Assembly: GCF_900114005.1 (NCBI RefSeq)
Contig: NZ_FORM01000002.1
Span: 186,001 to 250,000 of the forward strand
Length of the DNA: 64,000 nt
Reading direction: 5' to 3'
Source: Olleya namhaensis
Lineage (GTDB): Bacteria; Bacteroidota; Bacteroidia; Flavobacteriales; Flavobacteriaceae
The notes below the pieces were generated by a model that was not told the DNA's origin, searched no databases, and saw only the letters and a list, made by a program, of their open reading frames with translations. This document shows, one piece after another, positions 16,302-58,275 of this stretch. A program made the position numbers and the translations under genes. Positions within the stretch are counted from its first letter, which is position 1. Each line of letters begins with the position of its first letter.

Positions 16302-16398
16302 TTGGGGCGTTACCACAAGGGTCGCGCTGTACATTATATCTTTTTTTGCCATTTGTGGCAGCAAAAAAAGGATGCCATTTCCATCGCTAACGCGGGCT
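16302..16398. repeat. REP-like extragenic palindromic element
   Basis: A GC-rich island between two convergent genes. It opens with GGGGCGTTACCACAAGGGTC and closes with CGCTAACGCGGGC, so GCGTTA and TAACGC form outer inverted arms. Inside is a nested hairpin (16341-16369) with TTTTTTTGC/GCAAAAAAA outer arms and a GCCA/TGGC tip. From memory, sequences of this shape (GGGCGTTACC..AAGGGTCGCGCT..CTAACGCGGGC) recur between genes in many flavobacterial genomes. The inner hairpin could also terminate both flanking genes. Confidence 0.65.
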
Positions 16399-17402
16399 TA
16401 TTTAATAAGACCATGACTTCTAGCATGGACTATAGCCTCTTTACTAGAATTTACCAATAACACTGGAGTTTGCTTATAATGACTAAGTAAACTTTTTACC
16501 CGCTTGGTTTTCTTCTTATCATTAACACTTCTTAAATATACTGCTTTAATACGGTCAGGATAGGCATTTACAAGTTGTAGATAAATATCAGGATCATGCT
16601 CTCCACTATCACCAATTAAAATAATAGATAACTTAGGATACGTCTTTAAAATATTTTCAATCTCTAACTGTTTTTCAGGCTTACTATCAGGCGTTTTCTT
16701 TTTAAAAATAGTACTAAAACCCCTCAATAAAATTGGGCCTTTAGGAAAATTATTAGTTCTTAAAAAAAACTCTAAATAACGGTATAAATTCCATGGACTA
16801 TGGCTTACGTAAAAAATAGGATTCGCCTTTTTATTAGTAGGACCTTTATGCAATTTATGGTAAAAATCTGCTGCACCTTCCAACGGAATTCTATTTTGAG
16901 CATGTTTAAAAAATGTATTATACAACACACGCCATTTTAAAACAGACACCACACCAGTGTGCAAAATAGTATCATCAATATCGCTAATAACACCAAAGTC
17001 AGAATCCTGATTAGGTATCAACAACTCTGCACGGAATCTATTCTGACTTTGTATTGTTCGTTTTAAAGACGCATCATCATAAGACACCTCAAAATTTAAC
17101 CAACCTTCCGTATTTATAAAATCACCAAAATCAGAAATAGCTTCATCTATTTTATAATAGCCATCCTTATCCGTTTCAGTGTAAAATACTTGATTATTAG
17201 GGAGTGTAATTTTAAGTCTTGTATGTTTTATTTCGTCGGTTTCAAATCGTTTCCACGTATTCAAAACAAGATTAAACATACTTTTTTGGTCTAAGTCAAT
17301 AGTTTCGTCTTCCAACGCACGACCGCGATGGTACAAATGGCTGGGCGTACCATAACTTAAAAACGAAATAATTTGTAAGGGATCTTTCTTAAACCAACTC
17401 AT
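16398..17402 (-). CDS. App1-family (DUF2183) phosphatase domain protein
   Basis: 334 residues. The C-terminal half (about 135-330) carries the App1 phosphatidate-phosphatase catalytic domain of the HAD superfamily: DIDDTILHTGV (DxDxT nucleophile motif), SHSPWNLYRYLE and LIGDSGEHDPDIY. The N-terminal half (about 25-125) looks like a small beta-sandwich. In yeast App1 dephosphorylates phosphatidic acid; the bacterial substrate is not known. It is transcribed alone. The TATATTTG -7 box is only 4 bases from the ATG, suggesting a leaderless or nearly leaderless mRNA. Confidence 0.85.
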   Translation of the reverse strand: MSWFKKDPLQIISFLSYGTPSHLYHRGRALEDETIDLDQKSMFNLVLNTWKRFETDEIKHTRLKITLPNNQVFYTETDKDGYYKIDEAISDFGDFINTEGWLNFEVSYDDASLKRTIQSQNRFRAELLIPNQDSDFGVISDIDDTILHTGVVSVLKWRVLYNTFFKHAQNRIPLEGAADFYHKLHKGPTNKKANPIFYVSHSPWNLYRYLEFFLRTNNFPKGPILLRGFSTIFKKKTPDSKPEKQLEIENILKTYPKLSIILIGDSGEHDPDIYLQLVNAYPDRIKAVYLRSVNDKKKTKRVKSLLSHYKQTPVLLVNSSKEAIVHARSHGLIK

Positions 17403-52992: not shown

Positions 52993-53322
52993 TTAGTCTT
53001 TAAGCTCTAAACCAGTAATCGTTAATACTTCAATTTCTATTTCGTTTCCTTCTGCATCTTCACTCATTTCCATTGTTTTCTCATAAGTAACCTTGAATTT
53101 ACTTCCAACAAAATCGTCAGATTCTAAATCAAAAGCCTCTAAAGCTTCTTCTGATACATATTGAAATAACATTTTTGGGCTTTTACCGTTTTCTGGAACA
53201 TTAAATACATAATCATACTCTACAACGCCTTTGTAAATACCTGTAACAACTATTGGATTTGTAGTTGTGAATGATGTTAAGCTAAAAAAAGCTAATGCTA
53301 TAATAATTAATTTTGTTTTCAT
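52993..53322 (-). CDS. Small exported hypothetical protein
   Basis: 109 residues from the ATG at 53322, which exposes a signal peptide (KLIIIALAFFSLTSFTTT). The mature part has the look of a short beta-rich protein (GIYKGVVEYDYVFNV, SKFKVTYEKTMEM, IEVLTITGLELKD) and is acidic. No family is recognised. It is transcribed alone, with a clear terminator. Confidence 0.7.
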   Translation of the reverse strand: MKTKLIIIALAFFSLTSFTTTNPIVVTGIYKGVVEYDYVFNVPENGKSPKMLFQYVSEEALEAFDLESDDFVGSKFKVTYEKTMEMSEDAEGNEIEIEVLTITGLELKD

Positions 53323-54241: not shown

Positions 54242-54568
54242 TTAGAAATCGTCGTGATCTTGTTCCTCGCTTGGTTCTGATTCTGGATCCTGAACTGCTT
54301 CTGCGTCATCGTCTTCAAAATCTTCATAATCATCTTCGTCGTAGTTTTCCATAGTTTTTACCAACTTGGTACTAACCTTGACTAAATACTTAGTGTCTTC
54401 CGTAGTTACTTCTACAGCTTCTATAAGCTCGTTTTTAGCATTTCTAAACTCGATAATATGATCTTCGTCGTAGCCATCAGGATACTTTTCTACTAACAAT
54501 TTTAATATTTCAGGTGTTAGTTTTTTAAAGTCTACTATGACACGTTTTAAATTGTCTGTTTTTTTCAT
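54242..54568 (-). CDS. Acidic hypothetical protein
   Basis: 108 residues. The first 75 residues look folded (LKRVIVDFKKLTPEILKLLV, DGYDEDHIIEFRNAKNELI). The last 35 are almost all Asp and Glu (NYDEDDYEDFEDDDAEA) and probably unstructured, a tail type able to bind cations or basic partners. I do not recognise a family. It lies 15 bases after the deoxyhypusine synthase-like gene, so it is part of the polyamine transcript. Confidence 0.75.
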   Translation of the reverse strand: MKKTDNLKRVIVDFKKLTPEILKLLVEKYPDGYDEDHIIEFRNAKNELIEAVEVTTEDTKYLVKVSTKLVKTMENYDEDDYEDFEDDDAEAVQDPESEPSEEQDHDDF

Positions 54569-54583
54569 TTTTTACGAAAGCAA

Positions 54584-55558
54584 TTATAATCCTAATATGT
54601 AAGCAAATATAAGCGGAGCAACTATTGTTGCATCACTCTCTACAATAAATTTTGGTGTATCAATATCCAGTTTCCCCCAAGTAATTTTCTCATTAGGTAC
54701 AGCTCCAGAATATGACCCGTAACTAGTTGTAGAGTCACTTATTTGGCAAAAATAACTCCAAAATGGTGTATCTGTACGCTCCATATCTTGATATAACATT
54801 GGCACTACACATATTGGAAAATCTCCTGCGATACCACCTCCAATTTGGAAAAACCCGATTCCGTTTTTAGAGTTTTCAGTATACCAATCTGCTAAAAACG
54901 TCATGTACTCGATTCCAGATTTCATGGTACTAGCTTTAAGCTCTCCCTTTAATACGTAGCTTGCAAAAATATTACCCATAGTACTGTCTTCCCAACCTGG
55001 GCAAACTATTGGTAAGTTTTTTTCTGCTGCAGCATACATCCAAGAGTCTTTTAAATCAATCTCGTAATACTCTTCTAAAACGCCTGACAATAACATTTTG
55101 TACATGTACTCATGTGGTAAAAAACGCTCTCCATTAGCCTCAGCATCTTTCCATATTTTTTCAATATGGTGTTGTAAACGTCTAAATGCTTCGTGCTCAG
55201 GAATACAAGTATCTGTTACACGGTTAAGTCCTTTTTCTAATAAATCCCACTCTTCTTGAGGTGTTAAATCACGGTAATTAGGCACACGCTTGTAGTGCGA
55301 ATGTGCTACCAAATTCATGATATCCTCTTCTAAGTTTGCTCCAGTACATGAAATAATATGCACTTTATCTTGACGAATCATTTCTGCAAAACTTTTACCA
55401 AGTTCGGCAGTACTCATAGCACCAGCAAGAGACACTAACATCTTAGCGCCATTGTCTAATTGTGTTTCGTATCCTTTTGCTGCATCTACTAAAGCTGCTG
55501 CGTTAAAATGTAAATAATGATGTTCTATAAATTGTGAAACTGGTCCTTTAGTACTCAT
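54584..55558 (-). CDS. Deoxyhypusine synthase-like protein
   Basis: 324 residues of the deoxyhypusine synthase family, NAD-dependent enzymes that transfer an aminobutyl group from a polyamine. Features are MLVSLAGAMSTAELGKSF, SCTGANLEED, IGGGIAGDFPI, SYSGAVPNEKITWGKLDID, and the reaction-intermediate lysine in WGK (Lys296). Bacteria lack the eukaryotic protein acceptor eIF5A, so a small-molecule acceptor (putrescine, giving homospermidine) is the likelier reaction. It overlaps the agmatinase gene by 11 bases, in keeping with a role in polyamine synthesis. Confidence 0.9.
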   Translation of the reverse strand: MSTKGPVSQFIEHHYLHFNAAALVDAAKGYETQLDNGAKMLVSLAGAMSTAELGKSFAEMIRQDKVHIISCTGANLEEDIMNLVAHSHYKRVPNYRDLTPQEEWDLLEKGLNRVTDTCIPEHEAFRRLQHHIEKIWKDAEANGERFLPHEYMYKMLLSGVLEEYYEIDLKDSWMYAAAEKNLPIVCPGWEDSTMGNIFASYVLKGELKASTMKSGIEYMTFLADWYTENSKNGIGFFQIGGGIAGDFPICVVPMLYQDMERTDTPFWSYFCQISDSTTSYGSYSGAVPNEKITWGKLDIDTPKFIVESDATIVAPLIFAYILGL

Positions 55559-56486
55559 CGTCTTCGTTGAATTTAGAAGTGTTATTTTTTTGTGTGTCTT
55601 TCTCGTATGTGTTGTCGTAATCGTCTTCTGCGCCTTGATTTAAAAACTTATAGCTTAGCATTTTATAATATAATTTCGCAGCTAAAAAGTCTGAAGATTT
55701 ATCCACTTTATTTGGACATAATTCAACAATATCAAATCCAACCACGTTTTTCTCTTCAAATACTTGCTTTAAAAACTCTAAAGTTTCGTACCATAATAAA
55801 CCACCCGGCTCTGGCGTACCGGTACTTGGCATAATTGAAGGGTCAAATGCATCTAAATCTATGGTAATAAATACATTATCCGTCATCTGATCTATAGCAC
55901 TATCCATCCAAGTATCATCCAATGCCATCTCATGCGCAAAGTATGTCTTCTCTGTGTCCATTACAGTCTTTTCAATAGCATCCATAGAGCGTATACCTAC
56001 TTGAATCAAGTTAGTATTTTGACTTGCTTCGTATAATGCACACGCGTGGTTACATGCTGTACCTTCATACTCCTTACGCAAATCTGCATGCGCATCTAAT
56101 TGCAATACTGTTAAACTAGGAAACATCTCGTTAAATGCACGTATTGTACCAATAGATATAGAATGTTCTCCTCCAAAAATAGTAACAAACTTATTTTTTT
56201 TAATATACTTTTTAGTTGCTTGATGAACAGCTTCTACCATTGCTTCTGGCGAGCTATTTTCTGTTACAGCATCTGCTAAATACACCCCTTGATTGTATAC
56301 TTCAGAATCTGTTTCGATATCATAAAGTTCCATATTTGCAGAAGCATCTAAAAATGCTTCAGGACCTTTATCAGCCCCTTTTTGCCATGTACTAGTACCA
56401 TCATAAGGTACAGGAATTAAAACAATTTTAGCTTTTTCTAATTTTGCTAATTCTTCTGGAATACCAGCATAAGTTTTAGTTTGCAT
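55548..56486 (-). CDS. speB: Agmatinase
   Basis: A 312-residue ureohydrolase that splits agmatine to putrescine and urea. All Mn-binding motifs are present: FGGEHSIS, QLDAHADLR and TIDLDAFDPS. The C-terminus extends with a polar tail (QGAEDDYDNTYEKDTQK). It lies between speA and the deoxyhypusine synthase-like gene, overlapping both by 11 bases, so translational coupling is likely. Confidence 0.93.
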   Translation of the reverse strand: MQTKTYAGIPEELAKLEKAKIVLIPVPYDGTSTWQKGADKGPEAFLDASANMELYDIETDSEVYNQGVYLADAVTENSSPEAMVEAVHQATKKYIKKNKFVTIFGGEHSISIGTIRAFNEMFPSLTVLQLDAHADLRKEYEGTACNHACALYEASQNTNLIQVGIRSMDAIEKTVMDTEKTYFAHEMALDDTWMDSAIDQMTDNVFITIDLDAFDPSIMPSTGTPEPGGLLWYETLEFLKQVFEEKNVVGFDIVELCPNKVDKSSDFLAAKLYYKMLSYKFLNQGAEDDYDNTYEKDTQKNNTSKFNEDDEY

Positions 56487-57873
56487 AACCTAAAATTTTA
56501 AGTAAGTCTTCACTTTTTTGTTGTTCAGAAAATAATGTTTTTGTGATGTTTCCATCCTTGTCTTTATCTATTAAAATATGTTTTGGAGATGGTATTAAAC
56601 AATGTTGTAATCCTCCAAAACCACCAATTGTTTCTTGATATGCTCCAGTATTAAAAAAACCTATATACAATGGTTTTTCTTTGTTGTATTTTGGTAAATA
56701 AATAGCGTTCATATGCTGCTCACTGTTGTAATAATCATCACTATCGCAAGTTAAACCTCCTAGTAAAACACGCTCATAAGAGTCATGCCAACGGTTTATC
56801 GCTAACATTATAAAACGCTTGTTAATTGCCCAAGTATCTGGTAATGTTGTAATAAAAGAAGAGTTTATCATGTTCCACTTTTCACGATCATTTTGTTGTT
56901 TTTGATACAACACTTCATAAATAGCGCCACCACTTTCTCCTACTGTAAAACTTCCAAATTCTGTAAAAATATTTGGTACATCTACTTCTTCCTCTTCACA
57001 CGTTTGTTTAATTTGATTAATGATTTCGTCAATCATATATTCATAATCAAAATCAAATGCTAACGAGTTTTTAATCGGAAATCCTCCTCCAATATTTAAA
57101 CTATCTAAGCTAGGACAAACCTTTTTTAAACTCGTGTATACTTTTAAACATTTTAAAAGTTCGTTCCAGTAATACGCATTATCTCTAATTCCCGTATTGA
57201 TAAAAAAGTGAAGCATTTTAAGCTCTACTTTAGGATTAGATTTTATTTGATTTTTATAAAACGGGATTATGTTTTTGTACCCAATTCCTAATCTTGAAGT
57301 ATAAAACTCAAACTTAGGCTCTTCCTCTGATGCAATTCTAATACCTACTTTAAAGTTTCCATCAATTTGCTCAGAAAGTAAATCTATTTCTTCGTAGTTA
57401 TCAATAATTGGAATACAGTTTTTTTGACCGTTATTAATTAACCGAGCAATGTTTGAAACATATTGATCACGTTTAAATCCATTACTAATAATAAATGTTT
57501 CGTCAGTTATCTTACCTTCCTTCTTAAGGTTTTCAACAATATCAATATCAAAAGCAGATGATGTTTCAATGTGAATATCATTTTTTAAAGCCTCATTTAA
57601 AACATGTTTAAAGTGAGAGCTTTTTGTGCAATAGCAATAGTTGTAGTTCCCTTTGTAATCGTGTTTTTTTATGGCATCTCTAAACCATGTTTTTGCACGT
57701 TGTATATTGTTAGAAATTTGTGGTAAGTATGTAAATTTTAAAGGTGCTCCATACTCTTCTACTAACTCCATTAAATCGATATCATGAAATTGTAATGTCT
57801 TGTCCTCTAACTTAAATTCTGGTTGAGGAAAATCAAAAGTTTGACTGATTAAGTCTATGTACTTTGTGTTCAT
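56476..57873 (-). CDS. speA: Arginine decarboxylase
   Basis: 465 residues of the PLP-dependent fold III decarboxylase family: PLP Lys84 in YCYCTKSSHFKH, FINTGIRDNAY, SLNIGGGFPIKNSL, FTEFGSFTVGESGG, and CDSDDYYN near the end. Agmatine formation is inferred from the next gene being agmatinase; E. coli SpeA is longer, near 650 residues. It heads a five-gene operon (speA, speB, deoxyhypusine synthase-like, two unknowns). A terminator hairpin lies only about 37 bases upstream of the ATG, behind a structured RNA. Confidence 0.9.
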   Translation of the reverse strand: MNTKYIDLISQTFDFPQPEFKLEDKTLQFHDIDLMELVEEYGAPLKFTYLPQISNNIQRAKTWFRDAIKKHDYKGNYNYCYCTKSSHFKHVLNEALKNDIHIETSSAFDIDIVENLKKEGKITDETFIISNGFKRDQYVSNIARLINNGQKNCIPIIDNYEEIDLLSEQIDGNFKVGIRIASEEEPKFEFYTSRLGIGYKNIIPFYKNQIKSNPKVELKMLHFFINTGIRDNAYYWNELLKCLKVYTSLKKVCPSLDSLNIGGGFPIKNSLAFDFDYEYMIDEIINQIKQTCEEEEVDVPNIFTEFGSFTVGESGGAIYEVLYQKQQNDREKWNMINSSFITTLPDTWAINKRFIMLAINRWHDSYERVLLGGLTCDSDDYYNSEQHMNAIYLPKYNKEKPLYIGFFNTGAYQETIGGFGGLQHCLIPSPKHILIDKDKDGNITKTLFSEQQKSEDLLKILGYAN

Positions 57874-57909
57874 TTTTGTTTAAAACGTTAAAATTAAAAT
57901 ATAAATAGT

Positions 57910-57940
57910 AAAAAAATCCTTGTTAAAAAAAATAACAAAG
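57910..57940 (-). terminator. Terminator hairpin in front of speA
   Basis: On the minus strand CTTTGTTA and TAACAAGG form an 8-bp stem (one U-G pair) around seven T residues, followed by A and seven T. It ends 37 bases before the speA start codon, so it would stop transcripts coming from the structured region upstream unless it is relieved. Confidence 0.75.
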
Positions 57941-58131
57941 TGACTATCAAATTTGAATTCTAAGGTCGTAAGTAGGCGCAAAGCCAAACTGATGCTGGCT
58001 AGCATATATAGATGTGAAAGCGGAAGTTAGCTTTAGAATTCGGTCGCTTAATCTGTAAGCTGCTTTTGAATATGACTTCCTAATTTTCAAAAGCCCGAAC
58101 ATAGAAACAGAGTTCAAAGTGTTCAGCTATT
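57910..58131 (-). ncRNA. Candidate structured RNA: leader/attenuator of the speA operon or an independent small RNA
   Basis: The 420-base gap 57874-58294 contains about 180 bases of clearly higher GC than its flanks. Inverted repeats stack in it: GAATTCTAA (57955-57963) with TTAGAATTC (58033-58041), enclosing ATGCT-GGCT-AGCAT (57992-58005) and GGC/GCC (57975-57985). A second unit has GCTTTTGAA/TTCAAAAGC (58062-58094, 9 bp) and GAACA/TGTTC (58097-58124), closed by AGCT/AGCT. The minus-strand reading ends in the intrinsic terminator 57910-57940. TTCATTTG at 58138-58145 is one base from the -7 consensus and sets the guessed 5' end. I cannot match it to a named RNA class. Confidence 0.5.
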
Positions 58132-58237
58132 ATACTGCAAATGAAATACTTTTTTTTGAATTAAAAACTTTTTTATTAAAAAAATAAAAAACATTTAATA
58201 CTCTGATAACAAGAGCACTTACAACTCTAAAAAACAC

Positions 58238-58275
58238 AAAAGCACTTCTTTTATTAAATTAAAAGAAGTGCTTTT
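58238..58275 (-). terminator. Terminator after the outer membrane barrel gene
   Basis: A perfect 16-bp stem AAAAGCACTTCTTTTA/TAAAAGAAGTGCTTTT with a 6-base loop, 20 bases past the stop. Confidence 0.92.

Follow-up and report, generated by a model that had tools for sequence, protein, structure and literature searches.

Which kind of regulatory element occupies the gap in front of the speA polyamine operon of Olleya namhaensis is the question raised by this locus, which lies in an analysed stretch of 64,000 nucleotides (here called the window). The original prediction, made from the sequence alone, placed here a structured RNA with its own terminator and read it as a transcription-attenuating leader, with a stand-alone small RNA as the alternative. 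Comparison with related genomes points to a leader, located before the polyamine genes of many marine bacteria, in which a folded RNA shares its bases with a short peptide gene, the product of which probably works through a pause of the ribosome that switches the genes on or off.

The gap between the end of the upstream ORF (58295) and the speA ATG (57873) measures 421 bases on the minus strand, in agreement with the approximately 420 bases originally given, and the raised GC content was recovered as well, with values of 0.33-0.41 in 100-base segments over 57950-58149 against 0.19-0.27 in those segments outside that do not overlap the element. The gene order on the minus strand is upstream gene, gap, speA, agmatinase, deoxyhypusine-synthase-like gene, a 108-aa gene, a DUF155 gene and a gene for a small secreted-type protein. 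The speA-like arginine decarboxylase (Orn_Arg_deC_N; 56476-57873, minus strand) matches PF02784 (E 2.3e-14), and its best NCBIfam models are arginine decarboxylases, all under their cut-offs. The agmatinase (55548-56486, minus strand) scores above the cut-off of TIGR01230, and the deoxyhypusine-synthase-like protein (54584-55558, minus strand; PF01916, E 1.9e-43; NCBIfam models all below cut-off) possibly belongs to a homospermidine route. The 108-aa product (54242-54568, minus strand), to which no function was assigned, had no match in Pfam or NCBIfam, and the small secreted-type protein (52993-53322, minus strand) had none above cut-off in either collection. Directly past the upstream gene, an inverted repeat of 16 perfectly matched bp around a 6-base loop, with a T run behind it (58238-58275), is likely the terminator of that gene. 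Elsewhere in the window, a Flavo-1 RNA (RF01705) is located at 16316-16402 of the minus strand, with a score of 61.3 bits, over the gathering score, while a tRNA/tmRNA search of the window detected none.

Fold and distribution of the RNA

The structured RNA domain, model R1, comprises 113 nt at the 5' end of the leader (58019-58131, minus strand), for which comparison between genomes establishes a fold of five helices and a pseudoknot: P0 (58129-58125 with 58032-58028), P1 (58124-58120 with 58109-58105), P4 (58099-58095 with 58043-58039), P2 (58094-58086 with 58070-58062), P3 (58060-58055 with 58051-58046) and the pseudoknot GGAAGU/ACUUCC (58080-58075 with 58027-58022). The first alignment (42 sequences, 39 distinct) had 95.5% of cells paired and two-sided changes in 20 of the 36 pairs. 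Covariation of the stems in relatives, which the original prediction had named as a check, is more extensive in a larger alignment of 101 copies, with 91.1% of cells paired and two-sided changes in 33/36 pairs; this alignment covers 100 loci of the 172-copy set described below, with weak and second copies included deliberately and the rest chosen at random. None of 500 shuffles attained any of five measures in either alignment (42 and 101), and sliding the partners by one base reduced pairing to 49-52% in both. The sequences in these alignments and counts are related, so that the counts are not independent events. The fold of the window region as a single sequence is not unusual (z = -1.18; 24 of 200 shuffles fold equally well or better), and the case for the RNA is therefore carried by the comparison between genomes.

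Regarding individual helices, one of the two 9-bp stems originally noted, GCTTTTGAA/TTCAAAAGC (58094-58086 with 58070-58062), is helix P2, with 91.9% of cells paired and two-sided changes in 9/9 pairs (101 sequences). The second, GAATTCTAA/TTAGAATTC (58041-58033 with 57963-57955), is present in the window, but pairing between its two arms is no stronger for partners from one genome (mean -5.20 kcal/mol) than for partners swapped between genomes (means of -5.53 to -5.10 kcal/mol), and the stem was rejected as a switch since own versus swapped pairing gives no signal. The pseudoknot, which was omitted from the model behind the 101-sequence alignment, is 96.4% paired with two-sided changes in 5/6 pairs (101 sequences). 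P1, the loop of which contains the start codon of the leader ORF, is 87.7% paired over the main run and has two-sided changes in 2/4 pairs (101 sequences); the outermost pairs of P3 are weak and its innermost pair is unpaired in 49 of the 101 sequences. An alternative P1 (58124-58120 with 58101-58097) was rejected as lacking covariation. Also rejected was the fold given by RNAalifold itself, in which columns 20-30 are joined to the 3' end in place of P0 and the pseudoknot, as the joining pairs have no two-sided change; P0 and the pseudoknot were retained because of the two-sided changes in both.

An initial search with a 251-base query matched 42 of 149 relatives, and in 40 of these 42 loci the element lies 240-375 nt upstream of speA, with speA about 1.5 kb away in one locus and absent in another. 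A covariance-model search detected the RNA, nearly always as a single copy per genome, in 189 of 397 sampled genomes of the family to which the window belongs (130/237 genera). An order-level sample of 246 genomes, which was searched with stricter filters and is not broken down by family, contained it in five, each of which belongs to that same family. Among named genomes, a scan with a DNA pattern found at least 118 stretches; among the 80 matches listed, the titles, from which the taxonomy is taken, are Flavobacteriaceae genera, e.g., Winogradskyella, Lacinutrix, Tamlana, Algibacter and Formosa, and otherwise metagenome-assembled genomes labelled only Flavobacteriales or Bacteroidia. From part of the RNA-positive family genomes, 196 matches were collected, leaving 172 distinct copies after removal of duplicates. 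Of these, 162 are located within 400 nt upstream of speA and on its strand; one of the other ten reaches a contig end and nine precede another gene.

The original prediction matched no known class by eye, in agreement with the Rfam searches, which at the gathering threshold gave no match at the locus (with the whole window scanned) and none at the RNA in 11 diverged loci. In a permissive search of 57900-58140 the best sub-threshold scores were 11.3 and 9.7 bits, both on the opposite strand, and permissive searches of stretches of 801 and 241 bases gave only chance matches, around the AT-rich hairpin at 58238-58275. These results support a covarying, cis-placed RNA before the polyamine operon that would lie outside every Rfam family. 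A conserved, covarying structure at the head of genes with linked functions is expected of a riboswitch and is present here; the RNA half may bind a ligand.

Regarding the terminator, the proposed layout of an aptamer-like fold, a terminator and a biosynthetic operon is not supported beyond the conserved, covarying RNA before the operon: its terminator is not conserved and the same stretch encodes a conserved leader peptide. The structure described as an intrinsic terminator 37 bases before the speA ATG is a weak AU-rich hairpin (57940-57933 with 57925-57918; -5.3 kcal/mol) with a T run, at 57910-57940 of the minus strand, which a terminator scan requiring at least three G-C pairs did not report. 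Among 159 relatives kept after gaps outside 30-260 nt were dropped, a hairpin of -5 kcal/mol or better with a T run occurs in 6 (shuffles 0.8) and one of -3 kcal/mol or better in 18 (shuffles 3.4), so that an intrinsic-terminator expression platform is found in few loci. At the other end, a putative -7 element, TTCATTTG (58138-58145, minus strand), which agrees with the Bacteroidetes TAnnTTTG with one mismatch, lies some 7 nt ahead of the conserved RNA; in the 30 nt that precede the RNA, CATTTG was found in 79 of the 162 speA-linked copies (4.0 expected) and TAnnTTTG in 23 (5.2 expected). A second TAnnTTTG promoter before speA itself was rejected (1/158 against 6.9 expected).

A leader ORF across the RNA

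A conserved leader ORF, absent from the original prediction, runs across the noted region on the minus strand (57947-58117); it has 56 codons, starts with UUG, ends with UGA and encodes LNSVSMFGLLKIRKSYSKAAYRLSDRILKLTSAFTSIYASQHQFGFAPTYDLRIQI. The ORF was found in the same frame in all 42 of the first relatives and is intact in 170 of the 172 copies, the exceptions being L070, which meets a contig end, and L104, a second copy whose frame is broken. An NTG start triplet is present at one model position, or within one base of it, in 169/172 copies. Among the 162 speA-linked copies, the start codon is UUG in 111, AUG in 40 and GUG in 11, the base at -3 of the start is A in 122, and the length is 55-57 codons in 140. 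The other two frames over the full ORF span are open in 0 and 3 of 84, 0 and 0 of 41, and 0 and 1 of 15 copies.

Substitution rates differ between the two halves of the ORF. In codons 2-33, the RNA half, dS is 0.15-0.17 and dN 0.09-0.12, and from codon 34 to the end dS is about 1.26 and dN 0.21-0.26, giving a dN/dS of 0.17-0.20 (887 and 178 pairs of 75-98% identity, with only ORFs of 55 or 56 codons used). The low dS of the first half and the low dN/dS of the tail thus indicate selection on the RNA in the first half and on the protein in the second. The conservation near the stop codon is specific: 151 of the 162 speA-linked leaders end in [ILVFMY]-x-[IV]-stop and 11 do not fit, Gln (61 leaders) and Arg (56) are frequent at the next-to-last position, the end often being I-Q-I or I-R-I, and the stop is UGA in 146/162, compared with 3 of 51 window genes (ORFs of at least 150 aa). 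The median gap from the leader stop to speA is 75.5 nt. A short ORF upstream of the regulated gene and conserved as protein near its stop, the mark of a leader-peptide attenuator, is therefore present. In copies away from speA, the terminus fits in 3/8 and the stop is UGA in 2/8.

The distribution of the two elements suggests that RNA and leader peptide are separable modules. Fifteen speA loci (12 + 3) were taken from family genomes without a strong match to the RNA model; a leader with the strict terminus is present in eight, two of which also have weak RNA matches (48 and 30 bits), and in seven no strict-motif leader was found. By eye, a further two of the fifteen have leaders ending NIRQ and PIRS. 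Leaders of 18-20 residues with the ending IRI-UGA precede speA at three loci of another family. The strict motif was found in 6 of 50 speA loci of other families (L209-L258): three in one family (L210, L211 and L231), one with a strong hairpin (L234) and two weak ones (L212 and L246), the leader matches of which may be due to chance.

Conversely, the RNA occurs before genes other than speA. The nine such copies comprise four directly before homologues of the 108-aa operon gene (L023, L128, L166 and L186, in genomes G028, G377, G345 and G419), four, all second copies in their genomes, before small secreted-type genes (L079, L088, L104 and L106, in G246, G436, G176 and G280), which, judged by eye from translations, resemble the gene at 52993-53322 of the window, and one before a VOC-type gene (G069). 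In G069 and G377, where the RNA precedes other genes, speA retains its own leader, ending ELRV-UGA and LQLRV-UAG, respectively. G028 and G345 have kept the RNA, yet no speA match was found in either genome.

Three side observations concern these copies. Both small genes of the operon (54242-54568 and 52993-53322) have relatives or look-alikes elsewhere that lie directly behind the same RNA. The L166 locus of G345 has the leader, then a start like that of speA (ATGAATACA), a short broken stretch and the 108-aa gene, and looks like a deleted speA. In G246, two copies (L079 and L105) are arranged head to head with about 350 bases between them; speA follows one of the two and a small secreted-type gene the other.

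Predicted masking of the speA start and competing explanations

The bases that follow the leader stop are complementary to the start of speA beyond expectation in the comparison between genomes. For 154 loci, kept after gaps below 55 nt were dropped, the 27 bases from the leader stop pair with speA positions -24 to +9 at -7.37 kcal/mol in their own combination and -5.20 kcal/mol when swapped (z -20.1). In a non-redundant set with tighter segments (149 loci with gaps of 55-130 nt, reduced to 105 by dropping those of at least 0.80 similarity) the values are -5.93 and -4.40 kcal/mol (z -10.5; 0/200 swaps). Control segments gave z values of +2.5, -0.5 and -1.6 (105 loci), and two leader segments upstream of the stop are also over-complementary to the speA start (z -4.5 and -2.9), as is another leader segment in the 154-locus set (z -6.5). 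The 13 leaders with no or weak RNA have the same property (z -3.9; 0/300). In predicted ensembles, speA positions -6 to +3 are paired with the post-stop stretch with a mean probability of 0.30 against 0.17 when swapped, and pairing reaches 0.5 in 45/149 loci against 20/149 with a swapped stretch.

In the window itself, the candidate 5' arm of a hairpin that would mask the start of speA is ACTTTGTTATTTTTTTT (57925-57941, minus strand), which forms an inverted repeat of 17 nt, 76% complementary, with the candidate 3' arm AAAAATGAACACAAAGT (57861-57877, minus strand), the latter including the speA ATG. If the duplex between the post-stop stretch and the speA start is carried on into the codons of speA, it reaches -11.3 kcal/mol; the predicted pairing probability is 0.0, with the local hairpin originally taken for a terminator winning. 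Since initiation in Flavobacterium johnsoniae, from which Shine-Dalgarno sequences are absent, is tuned by structure at the start codon (PMC6847099), masking of the speA start is plausible.

On balance, and by somewhat better than an even chance, we judge the element to be a two-part leader in which a ribosome-arrest peptide controls speA and an RNA domain, perhaps an aptamer, has been added. Both parts are shown by the comparison between genomes: the mRNA has the pseudoknotted RNA domain at its 5' end, and a leader ORF of about 55 codons starts in the first hairpin loop of that RNA, has the RNA domain in its 5' half and protein-level selection in its 3' half, and ends with UGA about 75 nt before speA. 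We infer that the leader is translated, that the ribosome arrests at the UGA and that speA is thereby unmasked. Once the peptide is complete, the ribosome would be held at the UGA on a signal of arginine or polyamine metabolism and would cover the post-stop bases that otherwise pair with the speA start, allowing speA to be translated, while on prompt release the hairpin would form and speA would be repressed. The leader would in this way control translation of the operon, and perhaps transcription too. The folded RNA domain would set the frequency of leader translation as an aptamer or protein-binding site, or it may do no more than slow initiation on the leader. If arrest turns speA on, the signal would, by analogy, be either high arginine (substrate induction, compare ornithine for SpeFL) or low polyamine.

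A fuller version, which we regard as possible and somewhat doubtful, would make this a two-input leader. The pseudoknotted RNA would be a new aptamer class for a metabolite of arginine or polyamine metabolism that gates leader translation, and the peptide a new arrest peptide sensing a second signal at the UGA; the modules would have come together, parted and relocated independently during evolution, and at other places in the genome the RNA would also act on the uncharacterised small-protein genes of the operon.

Strong covariation and a pseudoknot are equally what a plain metabolite riboswitch would have, in which the RNA binds a ligand and controls speA directly and the ORF need only stay open; copies that precede other genes, in some of which the ORF is damaged or changed (the broken frame of L104, the terminus kept in 3/8), fit this as well, and spermidine riboswitches exist (PMC10853860). 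We consider it unlikely, as it leaves unexplained the protein selection on the tail, the UGA bias and the leaders that persist without the RNA, and as no terminator is conserved. Transcription attenuation through leader translation, Rho-dependent or of another kind and with no masking of the start, has been described for E. coli tnaC and Salmonella orf34-speF (PMC8429421, PMC6386406), which are built like the present leader, with an ORF and its stop codon ahead of the gene; the post-stop bases covary with the start of speA, which points to masking, and this mechanism, too, appears improbable here.

The protein-level selection could also mean that the ORF encodes a small functional protein merely sharing an mRNA with speA. 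This is very improbable, given that selection sits on the tail beside the stop while the N-terminal half varies with the RNA helices, that the length falls to 18-20 residues in another family, and that most copies away from speA lack the terminus and the UGA stop. An independent small RNA with a promoter and a terminator of its own, to which the promoter-like element directly upstream and the hairpin with T run in the window might belong, has hardly any probability left because of the fixed place before speA in 162/172 copies, the lack of a conserved terminator and of a TAnnTTTG box before speA, and the coding signature; neither an own terminator nor independence from the neighbouring gene was found.

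Relation to known leaders

The two-part leader favoured here resembles several described systems in part. TnaC and SpeFL arrest ribosomes at stop codons (PMC8429421), and a masking structure is described for Salmonella orf34-speF (PMC6386406). The orf34/SpeFL leader of gamma-proteobacterial speF likewise places a short ORF before a polyamine decarboxylase gene, with SpeFL arresting at its stop and a structure masking the downstream start (PMC6386406, PMC8429421). It belongs to another phylum and has another decarboxylase and peptide, the downstream gene being the ornithine decarboxylase gene speF and not, as here, an arginine-decarboxylase-type speA. The spacing also differs, at about 75 nt from stop to gene here compared with orf34 beginning at +32 and speF at +516, and, unlike orf34, the present ORF has its first 33 codons doubling as a covarying, pseudoknotted RNA.

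TnaC arrests at UGA with RF2 and has conserved C-terminal residues (PMC8429421), to which the UGA and conserved terminus here, and the proposed arrest, correspond. Its next-to-last residue is Arg (PMC8429421), and Arg or Gln stands at this place in many of the present leaders. TnaC precedes another gene and has no likeness in sequence by eye, and the accounts of it cited here describe no overlapping structured RNA of this kind. Another polyamine-gene leader ORF, mdtU of E. coli mdtJI, has 34 codons, a stop 106 nt before the gene and a conserved C-terminus, and its region is predicted to pair with the downstream ribosome-binding site (PMC7815308), comparable to the masking proposed here. mdtJI is a spermidine exporter, and the passages on mdtU cited here describe no covarying RNA domain (PMC7815308). 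The spermidine riboswitch, a SAM-I variant, is also an RNA before polyamine genes (PMC10853860), but it has SAM-I architecture and a terminator at its end, which is absent here. No SAM-family match was found in the window, nor in 57900-58140 at E values up to 10. A leader ORF and a regulatory RNA are combined in one leader, as here, in the Salmonella mgtA leader with mgtL. In contrast to speA, mgtA encodes a Mg2+ transporter, and to our knowledge the mgtL leader is not related in sequence to the speA leader.

In the open-licence literature searched, no description of an RNA or leader peptide before speA in these bacteria was found, and little work there addresses how Bacteroidota regulate their polyamine synthesis. 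What appears to be new is a leader-peptide attenuator carrying an unusual, overlapping RNA domain without an Rfam family. If this is true, the same bases in one stretch of 180 nt would yield an RNA family and a candidate arrest peptide, both of them new, selection on RNA structure and on protein would act on two halves of one short ORF, and the uncharacterised small proteins of the operon would gain a regulatory link to polyamines.
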